From: a virus
Strand: one strand, 5' to 3'
Virus record (IMG/VR): IMGVR_UViG_3300025327_000170
Coordinates: 1 to 21,164 of that record
Length of the DNA stretch: 21,164 bases
The notes under the pieces are model-generated. The model had not been told where the DNA came from. It did not search any database and saw only the letters and a program-made list of their open reading frames with translations. Below, in pieces: positions 3,280-17,338 of the stretch; the first letter of the stretch is position 1; each line of letters begins with the position of its first letter. Both the position numbers and the translations under genes were made by a program.

Positions 3280-3356
3280 ACGGGAATATCTGGCTAGTCC
3301 TCATCGTCATCTTCATTCTGCTGGTGTTGGCAGGCTTCATATCAGTCGGGCGCTAG
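3276..3356 (+). CDS. 26-residue membrane peptide
   Basis: ATG at 3276 forms an ATGA overlap with the previous stop, the same coupling used throughout the window. The product is almost entirely one transmembrane helix (NIWLVLIVIFILLVLAGFIS) with a short VGR tail. The overlap and the uninterrupted hydrophobic coding argue for a real gene. It closes the lysis cluster and may modulate the holin. Its TAG stop lies in the palindrome CTAG (3353-3356), which is also the stop of the convergent gene on the other strand, so the two transcription units meet with no spacer. Confidence 0.6.
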   Translation: MNGNIWLVLIVIFILLVLAGFISVGR

Positions 3357-4177
3357 CACGTCTCCCTCCATGTCTGTGTCCATCTGCTCGCGAAGGGCTC
3401 CAGCCCCAGCTCCGCGCTGGTCTCCGCGTTGACGCCATGATACCAGCAGCGGGCCAAGGACAGCGGCGCCGCGCGGTAGTAGCTCCAGCCGCCGGCGTCG
3501 AAGTCGTCTATCGCCACGGACCGCTTGCCCACGGCAGTCAGGGCGTTCATGCCCCGATCCGCACGCTGACACCACGGCTCACCATGTGACGCGCAGAGCC
3601 GTCTCAGGCCGATGACCGCATAGTTCATCTGATTCAGGATGAAGAGGTGGTTGTCGGTGCCCACGTTGGCAGCCAGGTACCAGTAGCGGTACGGCTCGTA
3701 GACGTAGGCCACGCCGCCGTTACCGGCCGTCCAGTCGAACGCACGGCCGGCCCGCTCCGCCAGGTCGGGGTCGGTGTCCATGAGGAACTCCGCCAGGTTG
3801 GCCTGTACCATCGCGTTTGCGTGACCGTTCCAGACCGGCCAGACCGTCAACCCCCGGTGTGGTGACACGCCGTTGTCGCGGAACCACTGGAGCTGCGTCT
3901 CCAGGTAGGGGCAGGTCTCCGGTATCGTCTTGCAGTCTTCCTTGAGGAAGCGGGCGTACAGGAAGATGAAGTGCGGGTTGGGGACGGCGCCGACCGCGTA
4001 GATCCACATCGGGGTCAGGCCGCTGAAGCCGATGCAGCCCGCCGTCTTCTCTGGGGTACAGGCTTCGCTGGCGATCCAAGCCGCCGCCGTGCCCTCCGTG
4101 GGGTAGTTCTGCGGGGCCGAGGGCAGCTTCCAGGCCGCGAGGAAGAGGGCCAGGGCGAAGAGAGCGAGCAACTTCAT
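3353..4177 (-). CDS. Secreted protein of unknown function, possible alpha/alpha-barrel fold
   Basis: The ATG at 4177 has a good ribosome site on the minus strand (AAAGGAG). Residues 1-20 (MKLLALFALALFLAAWKLPS) form a Sec signal peptide with no lipobox cysteine, so the mature protein of about 250 residues should be exported. It is rich in Trp, Tyr and Asn-Gly turns, with several cysteines that could form disulfides. The C-terminal GGWSYYR...WYH...E...LGL pattern resembles the end of the D-glucuronyl C5-epimerase C-terminal family of alpha/alpha barrels, but the match is weak and from memory. It follows the integrase by 19 bases on the same strand, so it may be expressed in lysogens as a cargo (moron) gene acting on surface polysaccharide. 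That role is inference. Confidence 0.6.
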   Translation of the reverse strand: MKLLALFALALFLAAWKLPSAPQNYPTEGTAAAWIASEACTPEKTAGCIGFSGLTPMWIYAVGAVPNPHFIFLYARFLKEDCKTIPETCPYLETQLQWFRDNGVSPHRGLTVWPVWNGHANAMVQANLAEFLMDTDPDLAERAGRAFDWTAGNGGVAYVYEPYRYWYLAANVGTDNHLFILNQMNYAVIGLRRLCASHGEPWCQRADRGMNALTAVGKRSVAIDDFDAGGWSYYRAAPLSLARCWYHGVNAETSAELGLEPFASRWTQTWRETC

Positions 4178-4833: not shown

Positions 4834-4861
4834 TTGACAAGTACCCACGCGCTGTTATAAT
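4834..4861 (+). promoter_or_regulatory. Strong sigma-70 early promoter with extended -10
   Basis: TTGACA at 4834-4839 and TATAAT at 4856-4861 are both perfect consensus hexamers separated by 16 bases. TG at 4853-4854 adds an extended -10 (TGTTATAAT). Transcription should start at about 4868, only about four bases before the ATG at 4872, so the first early message would be leaderless or nearly so. It points right into the early operon and away from the integrase. No palindromic operator is obvious around it. Confidence 0.85.
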
Positions 4862-4871
4862 CGTGGATGGT

Positions 4872-5030
4872 ATGAGCGACCACAAGCGATGCGCAGCCGA
4901 AGGTTGTAACCGGTTTGTCCCGGACGAACGGCGATTCCATGCGATCTACTGTTCCAAGAAGTGTGCCTCTCGCACGCAGGCCCGCCGTTACCGGGAGCGG
5001 CACCCCAAGCCGAAAGAGGAGCAGGCGTGA
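4872..5030 (+). CDS. Small zinc finger protein, CGNR/treble-clef-like, 52 aa
   Basis: The first gene of the rightward early operon. ATG at 4872 lies about 11 bases after the -10 element, and an upstream ATG at 4812 would be outside the transcript, so 4872 is the likely start; in-frame GTG at 4863 is another. The pattern C-x4-C, then C-x3-C followed by SRTQARRYRER, matches the layout of CGNR-type or related treble-clef zinc fingers with a basic DNA-contacting tail. As the promoter-proximal early product it may regulate phage or host transcription, and it could fill the place of the missing repressor or Cro-like protein. That is inference from position and zinc site. Confidence 0.68.
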   Translation: MSDHKRCAAEGCNRFVPDERRFHAIYCSKKCASRTQARRYRERHPKPKEEQA

Positions 5031-5064: not shown

Positions 5065-5313
5065 ATGGCGAAGCGTATCATCATCGGCGCCGCCGGGCCC
5101 ACCGTGCATCCACGACCGGATAACCAGCCCAGCTATGACCGCTATGGCTGCCAAGACGCGAATCCTATCGAGACCATCTGCGCGACCTGCGACGGGCCAG
5201 CCTACGCGCTCGGCGGCGGCAGCCTCTGGTGCCTGCGCTGTCTGGAGCCGCTGATCGCCAGGGGCGAGGCATTCCAGCCGCGCATCACTGTCCGGCGGGC
5301 GGTGACAGCATGA
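5065..5313 (+). CDS. Zinc ribbon protein, 82 aa
   Basis: ATG at 5065 follows a CGGAG ribosome site. A 12-codon open frame from GTG 5027 (GTGA overlap with the previous gene) ends at TGA 5063-5065, sharing its A with this ATG, so it could act as a translational bridge. The protein has CATC near residue 38 and CLRC near residue 57, separated by a Gly-rich loop, a standard zinc ribbon, with a basic C-terminal tail (ITVRRAVTA). No membrane segment is seen. Function is unknown; the zinc ribbon fits nucleic acid or protein binding. The ATGA at its end couples it to the doubtful ORF at 5310. Confidence 0.68.
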   Translation: MAKRIIIGAAGPTVHPRPDNQPSYDRYGCQDANPIETICATCDGPAYALGGGSLWCLRCLEPLIARGEAFQPRITVRRAVTA

Positions 5314-5603
5314 GTCCTTTGGTCAAGGCGGTCAGGTATCCTCCCTTAATCCTGGGCCGCACCCCTTTTGCGGCTGCCGTCCCCTCCGACGGCGGTCGCC
5401 TTGAGCGAAGGACTGTCCATGGGGATGCCGGAGCGCTGCCGGTTCCTGGGGGCGCCAACCTCCCGGACTCGCCGGCATCTTCCTCCGGCATCCCCATGGG
5501 CGGCGGAGGGGAAGCGTATATGTCCCTGGCAGCTGCTCAAGGCAAGCGCCTCTCCGCCGTCAAAACAACAGAACCGGCCAGCGCTGAAACCGCCAGCCGG
5601 TAG
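5310..5603 (+). CDS. Doubtful ORF over a hairpin-rich segment, 97 aa
   Basis: An ATG with ATGA overlap opens a 97-codon frame ending in TAG just before the HNH ribosome site. The predicted product is low in complexity (Ala, Pro, Gly, Ser) and has no recognisable domain. Most of it covers a chain of inverted repeats (5356-5512), which would explain the odd composition better than protein selection does. I list it because its start coupling matches its neighbours, but the segment may act mainly as structured RNA or DNA. Confidence 0.3.
   Translation: MSPLVKAVRYPPLILGRTPFAAAVPSDGGRLERRTVHGDAGALPVPGGANLPDSPASSSGIPMGGGGEAYMSLAAAQGKRLSAVKTTEPASAETASR
5356..5512 (+). repeat. Nested inverted-repeat cluster upstream of the HNH gene
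   Basis: Several perfect inverted repeats lie in series: 5356-5361 with 5369-5374 (GCCGCA), 5376-5381 with 5388-5393 (GCCGTC), a 17-base stem 5417-5433 with 5483-5499 (begins CCATGGGG), and an outer 9-base stem 5380-5388 with 5504-5512 (TCCCCTCCG). The outer stem competes with the GCCGTC hairpin for the same bases, so alternative folds are possible. No U-run follows, so it is not a simple terminator. It ends about 107 bases before the HNH start. Confidence 0.75.
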
Positions 5604-10425: not shown

Positions 10426-11967
10426 ATGTCCGTCAGTTTCTGTAGCGTCACACGCACCCCCACGGGCGCAGAAGCGCCACATCCCGCTATCAAACGATGG
10501 GCACGATTGGGGGATCGTACCGTTTTGATGGGAGATAGAAGCGACCTTTGTGCTTGCCGCCAGCGCCTCCATGCTGAGCGGTGGGTAGTCTTCGCGCATC
10601 TACTTATAGGCGAGGAAGAGTTGCCGCCCATATGCCCGCACTGGCGGATACCGAACTGGGAGATGGCGGAGGCGTTTGAACTGAACACGGACGACGAATC
10701 CGATGCGATTCGCAGCCTTCGAGGAGTGGGAGAGATGGGTCAGGGAGTAACCCGCACCCCCACAGGTGCCGAACTTCAGTGTGCGGTATGCCGCTCCCCG
10801 AATGACATCGACATCGACCACATTCAGAACCGTGGCGCCGGTGGCTCGAAGGAACGCGACGTAGCGGAGAACAAGATACCGCTGTGCCGTGGGCACCACA
10901 CGGCGAAGACGGTAGGCACAATCAAGACATGGGTGAAGGACGGGGTGTACCACTGGCGCAAGCGGGACTCCGACCTGGTGTTCCGCGTGCCCGTAGTTAT
11001 CAGCGAGCGTTACAAGTGCCTGGTAGCCTGTGATGGAGCGGAGCTACAATCGAACGTCGGTGGTCCTGGTCAGCAAGGTTCCGCTCCATCACAGGCTGGT
11101 GAAGGGGTCCGTAGCGGAAAAGGATGTGTGAACACGCCCCCTTCACCAGCCACAAGCACGGGTGACCAGGGCACGGCGAAGGCCGAGGTGGGAATCGCTG
11201 TTGCTGCTGACTTGCGCGAACTCGAAGCCCTCCGCCGTGATGAGCAGGAAGCAGTTGGCTTCCTGCCACTATCGCGGTATGAGGCCGAAGTCGTTGCAGG
11301 CCGGAAGACGCTAATAACACTTCGGGACAATGGAGACATGACGGGGTTTCTCTTCTGGACGCGGGGTCGGCCCGTGGCGACGATCCAACAGATTGTTGTT
11401 CGGCCTGACGCACGCCGGCACGAGCGGGCGACGGCGCTAGTGAACGAGGCTTGCCGAATAATGGAGGCGGGCGGCCACGCTGGGGTCACGTGTCGATGCC
11501 GCGTGGACCTAGAAGCCATAGCCTTTTGGGAGGCTATGGGCTTCGAGATGATCCGCCTCGAAGAGTCGGGGCGGCGAGGGCCGCTCATGCGTTTCTATCT
11601 TAGCCTTCAGCCGTCACTACTTTCACCTTCTGAGTTCTTGCGGTCATCAGCCTTCGGGCCTTTAGCCCAGCAACGGCGAGGCTTCAGGCTGATGTCCCCG
11701 CGTACCGCAAGCGCGGGTGACCAGCAGAGAGTGAGTCCGCCAGGGGAAACTGACGGCGATAGGTCGTCCGCGCTTGCGGGGGCTGGAGGGGGCTTGGAAG
11801 AGGTGCCCGCTTTGGCGGACTACCAGCGACTCCAGGATTCCTCTCCAGCCCCTCTCCTGAAAGGGGAAGGGGGAGTTGCGCCACGTATCGGCCGCTCTGG
11901 TGAATTCAGCGCTCCCCCTTCCCCTTTCTCCCTCGCTCAGGGTGAGCGTGGAGAGCTGACGCCATGA
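10426..11967 (+). CDS. HNH endonuclease-GNAT acetyltransferase fusion ORF, 513 aa
   Basis: A strong ribosome site (CAGGAGGAAG) precedes ATG 10426. An HNH nuclease motif covers residues about 119-160 (CAVC, DIDHIQNRGAGGS, LCRGHH). A GNAT N-acetyltransferase fold covers about residues 275-392 (IQQIVVRPDARRHERATAL as motif A, FWEAMGFE as motif B), although the acetyl-CoA loop lacks the usual glycines. Between them and after the GNAT domain lie low-complexity stretches that coincide with inverted-repeat clusters. The peptide VTRTPTGAE occurs twice (residues 8-16 and 108-116). ATG 10735, preceded by GAGGAG, could start a separate HNH protein. The end makes an ATGA overlap with the DUF5131 gene. 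It may be one fusion, two genes with lost boundaries, or a mosaic. Confidence 0.6.
   Translation: MSVSFCSVTRTPTGAEAPHPAIKRWARLGDRTVLMGDRSDLCACRQRLHAERWVVFAHLLIGEEELPPICPHWRIPNWEMAEAFELNTDDESDAIRSLRGVGEMGQGVTRTPTGAELQCAVCRSPNDIDIDHIQNRGAGGSKERDVAENKIPLCRGHHTAKTVGTIKTWVKDGVYHWRKRDSDLVFRVPVVISERYKCLVACDGAELQSNVGGPGQQGSAPSQAGEGVRSGKGCVNTPPSPATSTGDQGTAKAEVGIAVAADLRELEALRRDEQEAVGFLPLSRYEAEVVAGRKTLITLRDNGDMTGFLFWTRGRPVATIQQIVVRPDARRHERATALVNEACRIMEAGGHAGVTCRCRVDLEAIAFWEAMGFEMIRLEESGRRGPLMRFYLSLQPSLLSPSEFLRSSAFGPLAQQRRGFRLMSPRTASAGDQQRVSPPGETDGDRSSALAGAGGGLEEVPALADYQRLQDSSPAPLLKGEGGVAPRIGRSGEFSAPPSPFSLAQGERGELTP
10447..10473 (+). repeat. Direct repeat copy 1 encoding VTRTPTGAE
   Basis: 27 bases that match 10747-10773 except at five positions, all of them third codon bases. 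The two copies start exactly 300 bases apart. Confidence 0.85.
10747..10773 (+). repeat. Direct repeat copy 2 encoding VTRTPTGAE
   Basis: The second copy lies immediately before the HNH CAVC motif. All five differences from copy 1 are synonymous, so the peptide has been kept while the DNA drifted. Confidence 0.85.
11025..11151 (+). repeat. Two long adjacent inverted repeats after the HNH domain
   Basis: An 18-base perfect inverted repeat pairs 11025-11042 with 11080-11097 (AGCCTGTGATGG...). A second, of 14 bases, pairs 11094-11107 with 11138-11151 (GGCTGGTGAAGGGG). The arms overlap by four bases (11094-11097), so full pairing of both at once is excluded at the border. An 8-base pair also links 11065-11072 with 11163-11170 (CCTGGTCA). 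The coded protein here is low-complexity. Confidence 0.8.
11705..11927 (+). repeat. Inverted-repeat cluster after the GNAT domain
   Basis: Perfect pairs: 11705-11716 with 11768-11779 (CCGCAAGCGCGG), 11734-11742 with 11813-11821 (AGTCCGCCA), 11779-11788 with 11843-11852 (GGGGCTGGAG), and a 16-base purine/pyrimidine stem 11860-11875 with 11912-11927 (AAAGGGGAAGGGGGAG). The first two pairs cross, so they cannot both form in a simple nested fold. The translated product is Ser/Pro/Gly-rich and not domain-like. Confidence 0.8.
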
Positions 11968-13514: not shown

Positions 13515-14348
13515 GTGACCTGGGTCCGCATCGATGACGCTTTCACTCAGCACCCGAAGGTGCTTGCGGCTGGGCCTCTAGCGATTGCCATGCAGGTTGC
13601 CGGGCTCTGTTACTGCAACCGGAATCTGACGAACGGGTTCGTGCCGTGGGCGGTTGCCCGCACCTTGGTCACGTGGGAGTTCTTGGAGCCACCTGACGAT
13701 GATGGCGAGCGACGTGTCTGCGAAGTCGGCGTCACTTCAGGCATGGCGGGTGAGACCGTCGATGCTGAGTATGTTCTTCGCCTCCTGCTGGAGACTGGCA
13801 TGTGGCAGGAGATACCGGGCGGCTATCTAATCCATGACTACCTGGACTTTCAGCCCAGCCGAGAACAGGTTGAGTCCGAGCATCAGGCAAAGGTAGCGGC
13901 TGGTCAAGCAGGTGGTCAAGCAGCCGCTAAAGCACGTGCTAAGGCAGGCGCTTTAGCAAAACGCAAGCAGAATTCAAGCCCAAACCCAAACCCTAAGCCC
14001 GTAGCCCGAAGCCCGGCTCCCGTACCCCTTGCTGCTGCTGCTTCCGATCCTGTCCTATCGCTGCTTTCAAAGGCTTACGAAAACGGATTAGGTAACTTAT
14101 CCGTAGGCGTAGAGGACGAGTTGCGCGATTGGAGCGAGCGGATTCCGGCGAATGAACGTGGCGAGAAGTGCATTGAGTACGCTTTTCGTGAAGCTGTGGC
14201 GCAGAATCATCGCTCCTGGTCCTACGTTGCCGCCATCCTGACGCGACTGGAGGCTGAAGGCTGGCCGGCTGAACCGGAGACTGTGGCGCCACCGAGCAAG
14301 GCGGAAGCGGAGTGGCTTGAGCGTCGCTACCAGCGAGGCAAGGCGTGA
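13515..14348 (+). CDS. DnaD-like replication initiation protein
   Basis: The N-terminal part (residues 1-110) has the WVRIDDAFTQHPKVLAAG opening and LLETGMWQEIPGGYLIHDYL segment of phage replisome organiser proteins, a winged helix domain that recognises the origin. After a flexible Ala/Lys and Pro/Asn linker (about 120-175), residues 185-250 match the DnaD domain (YENGLGNL..., CIEYAFREAVAQN, SWSYVAAILTRLEAEGW), which remodels DNA and helps load the host helicase. Such proteins often bind their own coding sequence, so the origin may lie within it. GTG at 13515 is preceded only by a weak AGAGGG site. The stop overlaps the methyltransferase GTG. A separate helicase loader is not seen. Confidence 0.85.
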   Translation: MTWVRIDDAFTQHPKVLAAGPLAIAMQVAGLCYCNRNLTNGFVPWAVARTLVTWEFLEPPDDDGERRVCEVGVTSGMAGETVDAEYVLRLLLETGMWQEIPGGYLIHDYLDFQPSREQVESEHQAKVAAGQAGGQAAAKARAKAGALAKRKQNSSPNPNPKPVARSPAPVPLAAAASDPVLSLLSKAYENGLGNLSVGVEDELRDWSERIPANERGEKCIEYAFREAVAQNHRSWSYVAAILTRLEAEGWPAEPETVAPPSKAEAEWLERRYQRGKA

Positions 14349-15257
14349 ATGTGGCTCTACGTCCCCTCCGAACACTTAGCGTCTGCGCCGGAGCCGGGGG
14401 GCTCGACCTCGGCCTACGAATGGCGGAGCCTGCTGCTCGCACAGTCCTGTACGTGGAACATGAAGTTACGGCCTGCCTCCAGTTGGTCGCGCGCATGGAG
14501 GACGGCACCCTTGATCCGGCGCCTCTATGGACTGATCTCCGAACCCTTGACGGCAGGCCGTGGCGTGGAATCGTGGATTGCATCATTGGGGGGATACCCT
14601 GTCAGCCCCACAGTGTCGCCGGCAAGCGACTCGGAGCCGCAGACGAACGCGACCTCTGGCCCGATACAGCCCGTGTTATCGGGGATGTCCACCCTGAATG
14701 GGTCTTCCTGGAGAACGTGTCAGCAGTGCTCCCCTACGTCTTTCATCGCTGGCTGCCAGAGCTATCGGAGATGGGCTACGTGGCTGAGGCGGCGCTCGTC
14801 CAGGCTGCGGACGTCGGCGCGCCGCACAAGCGCGAACGCCTCTTCGTCCTGGCCCACGCCGGACACCATGCCAGAAGCACCGAACAGCGGGACGAACAAG
14901 AAGAGCGATACGGCATCGTTGGGCGAGATGGCGAAGAACTGGCCCACGCCCCTAGACAACGATGCGAAGCAGCACGCGAACAGGGATGGGATGGCCCCGA
15001 CTCTGACGCAAGCGGCGGCGATGTGGCCCACGGCGACGGCCCACGATGGGCGGAGGCCGGGGAGCGAAGAGGGGAGCACGCAGGGGCGCAACCTGAAGCG
15101 CGAGGCGGAGCAGTGGCAGACGCCGGGGACGGCCCAGAGAAAGCTCGCCTCCGTAGACCTCACTCGCGCCGCTCGACTCCGGCTCACAGGAAACGGCGTC
15201 GTCCCGCAACAGGCGGCGCTCGCTTGGCGCATCCTCAAGGCGCGGTTCGTGACGTGA
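14345..15257 (+). CDS. DNA cytosine-5 methyltransferase, motifs split over two frames
   Basis: Starting at GTG 14345 (GTGA overlap), residues 12-22 give motif I (SVCAGAGGLDL, AdoMet binding), 85-87 motif IV with the catalytic Cys86 (GGIPCQPHS), 123-125 motif VI (ENV) and 162-170 motif VIII (KRERLFVLA). After about 14855 this frame lacks a motif X. Instead the frame one base later carries it near 15186-15218 (GNGVVPQQAALAW) and ends at TGA 15257. A complete enzyme therefore needs a +1 shift between about 14843 and 14856. This may be a sequencing indel, an inactivating mutation, programmed frameshifting, or two overlapping genes. The enzyme would protect phage DNA from host restriction. The GTG frame itself stays open to 16258, through the resolvase region. 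Confidence 0.8.
14349..15257 (+). CDS. Overlapping +1-frame ORF of 302 aa with WPTP repeats and motif X
   Basis: ATG at 14349 sits directly after the stop of the DnaD-like gene, four bases beyond the methyltransferase GTG, and runs in the +1 frame for 302 codons. Its N-terminal half is Ser/Trp-rich (SWSRAWRTAPLIRRLYG, GVESWIASLGG). The second half has repeated WPTP-type motifs (WPTPDTMPEA, NWPTPLDND, MWPTATAHD) and ends with the C5-methyltransferase motif X segment (GNGVVPQQA). I recall phage proteins of both kinds in databases, but cannot test whether this frame is translated as its own protein or only its C-terminal part belongs to the methyltransferase. The stop makes a GTGA overlap with the RusA start at 15254, which supports use of its 3' end. 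Confidence 0.5.
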   Translation: MWLYVPSEHLASAPEPGGSTSAYEWRSLLLAQSCTWNMKLRPASSWSRAWRTAPLIRRLYGLISEPLTAGRGVESWIASLGGYPVSPTVSPASDSEPQTNATSGPIQPVLSGMSTLNGSSWRTCQQCSPTSFIAGCQSYRRWATWLRRRSSRLRTSARRTSANASSSWPTPDTMPEAPNSGTNKKSDTASLGEMAKNWPTPLDNDAKQHANRDGMAPTLTQAAAMWPTATAHDGRRPGSEEGSTQGRNLKREAEQWQTPGTAQRKLASVDLTRAARLRLTGNGVVPQQAALAWRILKARFVT

Positions 15258-15331
15258 GCTCGTGGTCCTTCGCCGTCAAAGGCACGCCCCAACCCAAAGG
15301 CAGTACGCGCGCCTTCGTGCGCAACGGGCGC

Positions 15332-16135
15332 TTACAAAAGCCGGGACCAACGATAGGTGCCAGGCCCTCTTCGCTGCGCCAAACGACAAGCTTGACATCG
15401 GGTATATTCGGGCCGCGACACGCGTTTACCGCAGTCAATACAGAGCTTCGGCGAGTAGTTGGCTCGGCTCATTTCATGGAGCGTAGCGATATTACAAGTC
15501 CGCGAACAGAACCGAGAGGGCGTGCGCTTCGCCAGAGATACGGGCATGGTAAACCGTCGCCCACAGCGTTCACATTGCTTCTCGATTCTATTCTCACGGC
15601 AGGTAGCGCTACAGAGTTTGCGCCGGGCGCGGTGGGATGGCCAGCGAACCTGAAATTGCTTACCGCACCGCTGACATGTCAACGGGGCCAGGAAGTTAGG
15701 CTCCTGAGTCCGGTAGATCAAGAGAACAACGCCAGGATCGGGGCAGCCATGAAAGACCCGCCCGAAGGTCTCTGCGACTTGGCTGTCATCTTCCCAGATG
15801 ACGCCAGTACCCGCGTCGTGGCAAGCCTTGAGCAGATTGTCCACATCCGTCCGCTGATGGGTGCGCCGGAAGAAGAGGGCCCTGACGCCAAAGGTATCTT
15901 TCGATACCTGATAGCCCGCCTGGCGCCAGCCATCTTTCAGCGTCCAGGCCAACTCGTCTCGATAGCGGCCATAGCGGGCGGGCATGTATGTACCGCTGGC
16001 CACCACGCGTGGTCGAGGTGTTGGCAATGGATCGCCTTTCAGGCGGACGAGGTAAAGTTGGTCCTCGCAAGGTATGTGATAGGGCCATTCGCAGATATCC
16101 GCAAAGTCAACCACGCCTGTTGGCAACTTATCCAT
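15332..16135 (-). CDS. RusA-like Holliday junction resolvase fused to zinc ribbons
   Basis: ATG at 16135 follows an extended -10 element by only a few bases. An in-frame extension to 16255 is rejected because it is antisense to the RusA C-terminal remnant. Residues about 25-145 form the RusA domain: VRLKGDPLPTPRPRVV, RTHQRTDVDNLLKACHD with the catalytic aspartates (DVDN), and GVIWEDDSQVAETF. This enzyme cuts four-way junctions formed during recombination and concatemer processing. Residues about 150-267 hold three CxxC/CxxxC zinc modules (CQRC...CSATC, CERC...CSRTC, CIDC...CQAC), not part of standard RusA and likely adding DNA binding. It is the only minus-strand gene in the replication-packaging half. 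Confidence 0.8.
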   Translation of the reverse strand: MDKLPTGVVDFADICEWPYHIPCEDQLYLVRLKGDPLPTPRPRVVASGTYMPARYGRYRDELAWTLKDGWRQAGYQVSKDTFGVRALFFRRTHQRTDVDNLLKACHDAGTGVIWEDDSQVAETFGRVFHGCPDPGVVLLIYRTQEPNFLAPLTCQRCGKQFQVRWPSHRARRKLCSATCRENRIEKQCERCGRRFTMPVSLAKRTPSRFCSRTCNIATLHEMSRANYSPKLCIDCGKRVSRPEYTRCQACRLAQRRGPGTYRWSRLL

Positions 16136-16141
16136 GTCGGT

Positions 16142-16150
16142 ATTATACCA
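16142..16150 (-). promoter_or_regulatory. Extended -10 promoter of the inverted RusA gene
   Basis: On the minus strand this reads TGGTATAAT, an extended -10 (TGn plus the perfect TATAAT). No good -35 is seen at the usual distance. Transcription would begin at about 16135, which is the ATG of the resolvase, so the message would be leaderless. It lies at the border of the inserted gene, so the insert carries its own promoter. Confidence 0.6.
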
Positions 16151-16247
16151 CGAGACGCGCAGGTGACGGGGGCGCTGGTGGGCAAGTGCTACGGTGAGGC
16201 GCCGGGGCTGCGCTGCGAGATTCGATGGAGCAAGGAGACACGATCCG

Positions 16248-16688
16248 ATGGCCACTAAACTGGACTCCTACCGATACACTGACGTGGCTGCTCACAAGAG
16301 CAAGGAGGCGATTGAGAAGCTGCTCCTGCGCGTCGGCGCCGTCGGCTTCCGCTGGTCTAGTGCCATAGCGCAGGGCGAGGAGGCACTTGAGGCCGCGCTG
16401 GAGTGGGAAGGACGCAAGCGGGGCTTCCGCTTCACTGTGCGCTATCAGGACGAGAAGCAGCGTAAGCAGATTCTCCGGGCCCTCTACTGGTTCCTGAAGG
16501 CTAAGATCGAGGCGATCCAGTTCGGGCTGGTGGAGTTGGAGCAGGAGTTCCTGCCCTACCTGCTGACTTCGGAGGGGCGAACGGTGTTCGAGCACATCGG
16601 CGGCGTCAACATGGCCTTGCTCCCACCACCGAGCGAAGGCCGCCCGGAGGGCGACGACAGCATGGCCGAGGGAACGGGCGTGCTATAA
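16248..16688 (+). CDS. Conserved-looking phage protein, 146 aa
   Basis: ATG at 16248 is preceded by AGGAG (16232-16236) and overlaps the RusA remnant stop by 11 bases. The KSKEAIEKLLLRVGAVGFRWS opening, a strand pair (RGFRFTVRY) and a long helix (QRKQILRALYWFLKAKIEAIQFG) with EQEFLPYLL are familiar from a widespread phage protein of unknown role, found near replication or packaging genes. It is probably cytoplasmic and alpha/beta. The C-terminus is Pro/Gly-rich and flexible. The stop TAA shares its A with the following ATG. Confidence 0.7.
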   Translation: MATKLDSYRYTDVAAHKSKEAIEKLLLRVGAVGFRWSSAIAQGEEALEAALEWEGRKRGFRFTVRYQDEKQRKQILRALYWFLKAKIEAIQFGLVELEQEFLPYLLTSEGRTVFEHIGGVNMALLPPPSEGRPEGDDSMAEGTGVL

Positions 16689-16900
16689 TGGCCGAAATGG
16701 TGGCCTGCTGCCCACGCTGTAACGGCCCCCTGTTTGCGGAGGGTGGGGATATCGTCTGCCTCCCCTGCGGCTGGCGGCGGCTGGACGCTGGCAAGGTTCT
16801 CACCCCCCTGAATCCGTCGGGCTACTGCCCGAAGTGCGGCGTGGGCTACAATGCGGCGAAGCACCAGCGGGAATGCAAACGGCAGGAGGCCGTGGCGTGA
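16688..16900 (+). CDS. Double zinc ribbon protein, 70 aa
   Basis: ATG at 16688 (TAATG overlap) or ATG at 16697. It has CPRC and CLPC forming one ribbon (residues 8-27) and CPKC plus H-x3-C (residues 47-63) forming a second, C2HC-like site. An extended -10 sequence (TGCTATAAT) lies at 16681-16689, eight bases before ATG 16697, so an internal leaderless start is conceivable, but no -35 supports it. Small two-ribbon proteins near terminase genes are common in phages. Their function is unknown. Confidence 0.68.
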   Translation: MAEMVACCPRCNGPLFAEGGDIVCLPCGWRRLDAGKVLTPLNPSGYCPKCGVGYNAAKHQRECKRQEAVA

Positions 16901-17130
16901 TGGCGATCAAAGCCTGCAAGCCGCTGCGCAACGCCCGCAAGGGCACCTGGCGCTGCGCACGCCACCCAGCCCTTGGCCTGACGAATTCGCTAGCCATCGC
17001 CCATCATCTCGGCCTCTGGGCCGTGAGCGAGGAGAACGCGCAGGACGTGCGCCACCTCCCGAAGGGCGCGGGCTGCACGCGGGAGGATGTCTACTTCCAG
17101 TGCGCGGATCACGGCGAGGAGGCGGCATGA
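16900..17130 (+). CDS. Small Cys/His protein, 76 aa
   Basis: ATG at 16900 shares its A with the previous TGA. CARH (near residue 20) and the C-terminal CTRE...CADH group give a possible mixed Cys/His zinc site. The N-terminus is basic (KACKPLRNARKGTWRCARH), which would suit RNA or DNA binding. No known family. The stop overlaps the next tiny ORF (ATGA). Confidence 0.6.
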   Translation: MAIKACKPLRNARKGTWRCARHPALGLTNSLAIAHHLGLWAVSEENAQDVRHLPKGAGCTREDVYFQCADHGEEAA

Positions 17131-17177
17131 GGCTCGGGTGCGATGGACGAGGCTGGGTCGAGGTGAAAGCAACATGA
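17127..17177 (+). CDS. 16-codon bridging ORF
   Basis: ATG 17127 overlaps the upstream stop, and its own TGA (17175-17177) overlaps the ATG at 17174, both as ATGA. The peptide (MRLGCDGRGWVEVKAT) is too short for a domain. The two exact overlaps suggest that it relays ribosomes between neighbours, or is a micropeptide. Confidence 0.4.
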   Translation: MRLGCDGRGWVEVKAT

Positions 17178-17338
17178 GCTGCCCCACCGGCAGGATGCGC
17201 AGGGTTGTTACCAGCCGGTCGGTTCAGCGGCACCTTATTCAGGCCGTCATGCGCGCCGATGGCCTCTCGTGGTACATGGCGGCGCGACAGGTACTGTCCT
17301 TCACCGTGGCTCCTTCACTGTGGCTTATCCATGAGTAG
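17174..17338 (+). CDS. Small basic protein, 54 aa
   Basis: ATG at 17174 in an ATGA overlap; an in-frame reading from 17087 would lie in the preceding gene. The N-terminal half is very basic (RMRRVVTSRSVQRHL) and the C-terminal half hydrophobic with Trp residues (SWYMAARQVLSFTVAPSLW). The HLIQAVMRADGLSWYMAARQV part could be a short helix-turn-helix-like unit, but this is weak. It overlaps the TerS start by eight bases and may be a small DNA-binding or packaging accessory. Confidence 0.55.
   Translation: MSCPTGRMRRVVTSRSVQRHLIQAVMRADGLSWYMAARQVLSFTVAPSLWLIHE

Follow-up and report, generated by a model that had tools for sequence, protein, structure and literature searches.

A phage rusA gene probably displaced in place by an inverted RusA-zinc resolvase gene with its own predicted promoter

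Lambdoid phages carry either rap or rusA downstream of orf, in the same relative position (PMC4118853). A different route by which phage operons gain genes is the moron, a single gene acquired with its own promoter and often with a terminator (PMC2147016). The locus described here shares with the lambdoid case that phage resolvases alternate at one locus, and with gene displacement in situ in mosaic operons that an analogue of other origin takes the place of a gene at that gene's own locus. It differs from these cases in that the replacing gene is inverted, the old gene has kept its two ends in register and intact relatives fix the junctions to the base. Like a moron, it involves one gene with its own (predicted) promoter inserted into a phage operon; unlike a moron, the insert lies within rusA, with 237 bp lost, and not between genes that are adjacent in relatives, no terminator was found, and the insert's predicted function is that of the broken gene. 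The RusA proteins of the mycobacteriophages Majeke (about 30% identity over the RusA domain) and BigNuz (the best viral fold match) belong to the same subfamily as the replacing protein, but the three zinc modules are absent there, and no match covers 80% of the fusion. Our literature search, made largely without subscription papers, turned up no account of an inverted analogue lying within its counterpart.

The rusA locus and its junctions

The window, that is, the whole stretch of DNA analyzed, is an entire virus record of 21,164 bases. A scan with the large terminase identified four contigs with terminase identities of 91, 93, 94 and 74%, and three of them, L193, L194 and L196 (91, 93 and 74%), carry an uninterrupted rusA. 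Because these relatives were located through the terminase, the comparison is independent of the rusA remnants in the window. Their intact RusA proteins of 139, 130 and 138 aa scored 61.9, 76.9 and 59.8 bits, respectively, against Pfam RusA (PF05866, curated cut-off 22.8), and in all three the gene begins with the same GTGA overlap with the upstream gene that is seen in the window. The ancestral locus was not reached by distant blastn of the region against phages, via relatives of the downstream gene or of the methyltransferase, by a degenerate DNA pattern for the N end, or by the zinc part alone. In another phage (L021), a methyltransferase is directly followed by rusA.

Blastn against L193 aligned positions 15249-15331 of the window with 4916-4998 at 82% identity and positions 16154-16264 with 5236-5346 at 93%, with no alignment between 15331 and 16154. 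L196 aligned at both rusA ends and L194 at the N end. The break points lie at 15331/15332 and 16153/16154, and between them a segment of 822 bp (15332-16153, minus strand with respect to its gene) stands in place of the 237 bp of rusA present in L193. The relatives thus hold the ancestral rusA at the same locus, and the comparison with them fixes both the replacement and its exact ends. The sequence-only reading of this region had proposed a split plus-strand rusA and suggested looking for an uninterrupted copy in related phages; L193, L194 and L196 carry the gene whole. Neither of the outcomes it had named beforehand as speaking against it was observed, as the ends are RusA and the relatives keep the gene uninterrupted.

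The N-terminal remnant (15254-15331, plus strand) comprises 26 codons from a GTG that forms the GTGA overlap with the stop codon of the upstream methyltransferase gene. It reads VSSWSFAVKGTPQPKGSTRAFVRNGR, the start of the old rusA, and is 82% identical to the intact genes of L193 and L194. The C-terminal remnant (16154-16258, plus strand), 34 codons plus a stop codon at 16256-16258, reads DAQVTGALVGKCYGEAPGLRCEIRWSKETRSDGH from 16154 and is 93% identical to L193 over 111 bp. The start of the next gene (16248) and its likely ribosome site lie inside this remnant. The RusA N-terminus had been claimed to end at about 15331, and the alignment with L193 stops exactly there; the C-terminus claimed from about 16148 was correctly identified as RusA, but it begins six bases further downstream, at 16154.

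When the short ends were searched alone, no Pfam family matched, and the sole weak PHROG match was the RusA family (C end, E 0.13; joined ends, E 0.021). We also searched the six frames of the window with a RusA profile built from ten other phage RusA proteins, 2 of which had been found via the remnants themselves, making the test slightly circular and not fully independent; E values were 2.9e-5 for the N end, 0.06 for the C end alone and 1.6e-6 for the joined ends, the comparison that the sequence-only reading had proposed. A broader profile of 75 RusA proteins was weaker on the ends (joined ends, E 0.0017 among 25,832 segments). A permissive tblastn search of 50,697 phage records with the joined ends as query matched 18 records, half of which (9) were RusA loci of Pseudomonas and Tunturiibacter phages.

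Relative to L193, the window lacks 79 rusA codons containing the PDLSK / PDADK motif with the first two catalytic acidic positions, and the retained C end keeps only the last catalytic Asp (of DDAQV). The catalytic centre of the old rusA is therefore incomplete, in agreement with the earlier claim that it had been displaced. The second catalytic acidic position is Ser in the intact RusA of L193 (4921-5340) and L196 (3524-3940), both with PDLSK, while L194 has PDADK, so the old gene may already have encoded an altered enzyme. The remnants contain no stop and no frameshift, and their divergence from an intact gene (window to L193, 81 and 91% identity in the N and C parts) is about that between two intact genes (L193 to L194, 86 and 79%). 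On these grounds the event looks recent.

Upstream of rusA, the window carries a C5-cytosine methyltransferase gene (14345-15257, plus strand), which appears to be frameshifted: most of it lies in the frame of 14345, and its last 22-32 aa (LTGNGVVPQQAALAW) lie in the frame of 14349. The methyltransferase at this position is an N6/N4 type in L193 (3959-4924) and a different, SPPY-type enzyme in L196 (2139-3527). Each of them meets rusA in the same GTGA overlap, which we read as a module swap breaking at the gene boundary. Downstream, the gene following rusA (16248-16688, plus strand) encodes 146 aa in the window and is a 21-codon stub in L193 (5330-5395), arising through an in-frame 375-bp difference; L193 probably lost this gene, since a full-length relative (63%) is present in L004. 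With both the upstream methyltransferase type and the next gene differing in L193, the neighborhood is mosaic. Elsewhere in the window, a 513-aa frame at 10426-11967 (plus strand) unusually combines a weak HNH match (residues 119-162) with a GNAT acetyltransferase domain (276-373), and a 274-aa frame at 3353-4177 (minus strand) matches the D-glucuronyl C5-epimerase C-terminus family (30.8 bits, cut-off 23.3), an unusual gene for a phage.

The replacing gene and its predicted promoter

The segment between the remnants had been described as a complete minus-strand resolvase of another RusA type, with the size of one gene plus a promoter, and this description holds. The gene (15332-16135, minus strand; ATG at 16135-16133, stop at 15334-15332) encodes 267 aa, and the 822-bp insert runs from its own stop codon to 3 bp past an extended -10 element. 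The protein matches Pfam RusA at 50.7 bits (cut-off 22.8, residues 34-126); the domain extends over approximately residues 34-150 (15683-16034), and this is the only RusA of the record above the Pfam cut-off. D97, D99, D117 and K103 align with D70, D72, D91 and K76 of E. coli RusA (1q8r), and the catalytic positions D97, D99, K103 and D116/D117 are invariant in all 15 aligned family members. An AlphaFold2 model (pLDDT 82.9) has the RusA fold, with TM scores normalised to the target of 0.77-0.78 against 1q8r and 2h8e (E. coli RusA, 0.78). The insert is thus predicted to encode a RusA-zinc resolvase with all catalytic residues, and no other protein; its predicted function is that of the gene it breaks.

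Following the RusA domain are the three zinc modules that had been claimed (15383-15676, minus strand), with cysteines at 154/157/175/179, at 189/192 to 210/214 and at 232/235/247/250; this Cys pattern is conserved in relatives that carry the fusion. Between the displaced and the replacing RusA proteins, only a 39-aa core matches, at 36% identity, and we assign the replacing gene by its sequence to a different lineage, the zinc-fusion RusA subfamily. Relatives of this kind occur in viral contigs (L160-L165 and L167-L170) and in genome contigs of Streptomyces, Mycobacterium and Burkholderiaceae (L153-L156). Most have three zinc modules, with fewer in L162 and L168. The closest fusion proteins are 24-34% identical to that of the window and, where the neighborhood is clear, the genes lie in same-strand gene order in the other phages. 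No curated NCBIfam model matched the RusA-plus-three-zinc subfamily, and to our knowledge none of its members has been characterised. L168 (1-1252) carries a RusA gene and, in tandem with it and on the same strand, a RusA-zinc gene; the two overlap at about 479. L196, like L168, has two RusA genes, and a stage with two resolvases is therefore plausible.

As claimed, a predicted extended -10 promoter, TGGTATAAT, bounds the minus gene at 16142-16150 (minus strand). It lies 6 bp before the ATG in the layout TGGTATAAT-ACCGAC-ATG, and the insert ends 3 bp beyond it. The element TGNTATAAT occurs three times in the window (4853-4861 and 16681-16689 on the plus strand, 16142-16150 on the minus strand) versus 0.04 expected in shuffles, each time 5-10 nt before a start codon, and these are all three TATAAT boxes of the window. 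Of the other two sites, one precedes a zinc-ribbon gene at 16697 and one a gene at 4867 or 4872. A perfect TTGACA lies 16 bp upstream of the 4853 site, and no -35 was found for the promoter of the RusA-zinc gene. Counterparts of the 16681 site are present in L193 (5388) and L194 (1680), and in L196 an ATG follows TGGTATAAT at a distance of six bases. The transcript of the RusA-zinc gene is probably leaderless, and the extended -10 sites suggest leaderless transcription units in this phage lineage. Because none of the 13 relatives examined carries a TATAAT box immediately ahead of its start, the promoter is not a fixed feature of the family.

For Deinococcus-Thermus, a leaderless pattern has been described in which the -10 box immediately precedes the start codon (PMC12340547). 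The sites in the window are alike in this respect and differ in their extended TGN element; the nearest terminases from isolated phages are those of Thermus and Meiothermus phages. A leaderless transcript and a Deinococcus-Thermus host are plausible.

Origin of the arrangement and rival explanations

The insert has no DNA similarity to the 237 bp that were lost, and on the recipient side neither junction shows microhomology. The ends of the insert were checked for repeats, as had been proposed, and showed no inverted or direct repeats (none of at least 12 bases linking the junctions) and no target duplications. The insert contains no transposase, as had been stated, and no recombinase, and Rfam gave no intron match. 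Recombination between two resolvase genes, the route favored by the sequence-only reading, finds no support in these data: the insert is inverted, it shares no DNA similarity with the segment lost, which led us to reject homologous exchange, and the recipient side offers no microhomology. The "self-contained cassette" of that reading survives as gene and promoter and fails for a terminator, as no terminator-like site was found within 14200-17200. An inverted insert with neither shared DNA nor microhomology points to non-homologous joining followed by selection, which we infer to be the best-supported mechanism.

It seems very probable to us that a resolvase gene has been displaced in place by an inverted analogue bringing its own promoter. 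The ancestral phage would have had a plus-strand operon with a DNA methyltransferase gene, rusA and further genes. A small segment, holding a gene for RusA with three zinc modules and its own extended -10, would then have been joined into rusA in inverted orientation, and the loss of 79 rusA codons, in the same step or another, would have destroyed the old enzyme. The insert would have supplied a new resolvase, making the event self-complementing and allowing it to survive; the displacement would be tolerated because the insert restores the function that the insertion breaks. The new gene would be read against the operon from its own, probably leaderless, promoter, and, with the plus frame open through the insert, ribosomes starting at the old rusA could still get as far as its stop and the start of the next gene, which overlaps the rusA end. 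The inverted state was seen in one contig only, with no other opposed RusA pair at one site among 141 RusA-match loci. As the record covers only a fragment, the rest of the genome may encode another resolvase.

An assembly chimera, in which a RusA-zinc gene belonging to another phage was placed in the contig by mistake, would fit a single metagenome contig for which no second contig with these junctions was found. It would, however, take two independent false joins, both at the ends of a gene plus promoter and both in frame, and there is neither a repeat of at least 12 bases linking the junctions nor any longer similarity between insert and site to mislead an assembler; we consider a chimera improbable. 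Another reading treats the RusA-zinc gene as a selfish nuclease gene of the homing type, which would target rusA and spread through the cleavage of intact copies. In its favor are the insertion within a gene that it resembles and the weak similarity of its zinc part to HNH endonuclease families of phages (E 0.08-0.4). Against it, RusA enzymes show little sequence preference when they cut junctions, the relatives lie in ordinary order outside rusA, and there is a single case among 141 RusA loci. A homing endonuclease gene, intron or intein should also leave a clean insertion; with 237 bp of the host gene missing there is no complete host gene and no splicing, and we judge the homing explanation very unlikely.

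The inverted orientation of the segment and its sharp ends could also be taken as the work of a reversible inversion, a transposon, an intron or an intein. The lack of terminal repeats, target duplications, recombinase and transposase argues against a transposon or invertible element, the lack of an Rfam match argues against an intron, and the relatives' site holds different DNA, not the same DNA in opposite orientation, leaving this explanation with hardly any probability. Finally, the ends alone fall below every Pfam cut-off, as they would if their resemblance to RusA were due to chance and the minus gene lay between unrelated genes. The intact rusA of the relatives refutes this, with 82% and 93% DNA identity between the two ends and those of the L193 gene, and we regard its probability as negligible.

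The open plus frame and what the locus may tell

With displacement by an inverted analogue as the preferred reading, the plus frame is also of interest. It runs from the old rusA start to the old stop (15254-16258, plus strand; 334 codons) with no in-frame stop, although the inserted segment contributes 274 of these codons. Both lengths, 822 and 237, are divisible by three. The frame is not expected to encode an active RusA. At phage codon usage, the 267 codons of the new gene would be free of antisense stops with a probability of 0.01, and with the insert's own bias to codons ending in A this probability falls further. The observation is to be held loosely, since the open frame came to our attention only afterwards, in a region chosen in part because its frame is long. 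An open codon-aligned antisense frame is absent from all 13 other genes of the window, and 12 of 13 relatives have at least one antisense stop in that frame. The start of the next gene (16248) lies inside the old rusA end, so the open frame may protect coupled translation. It is conceivable, although we think it rather unlikely, that an inverted analogue can replace an operon gene if it restores function and its antisense strand keeps the operon frame open, so that the plus frame was selected. If this were true, selection would be acting to avoid polarity, to keep translation of the next gene coupled or to maintain a hybrid protein, and about 270 codons would be constrained on both strands.

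Swaps of unrelated or distantly related genes that do the same job have been inferred across phage genomes, and intermediates are rarely seen. With both old rusA ends preserved, the junctions known exactly and intact relatives for comparison, such an intermediate would be directly visible here. Models of gene swapping, whether by homologous, homeologous or illegitimate joining, by self-complementing insertion or with the operon kept translated, may now be tested against it. The locus also brings out the RusA-plus-three-zinc subfamily, with members in Streptomyces, Mycobacterium and uncultured phages.
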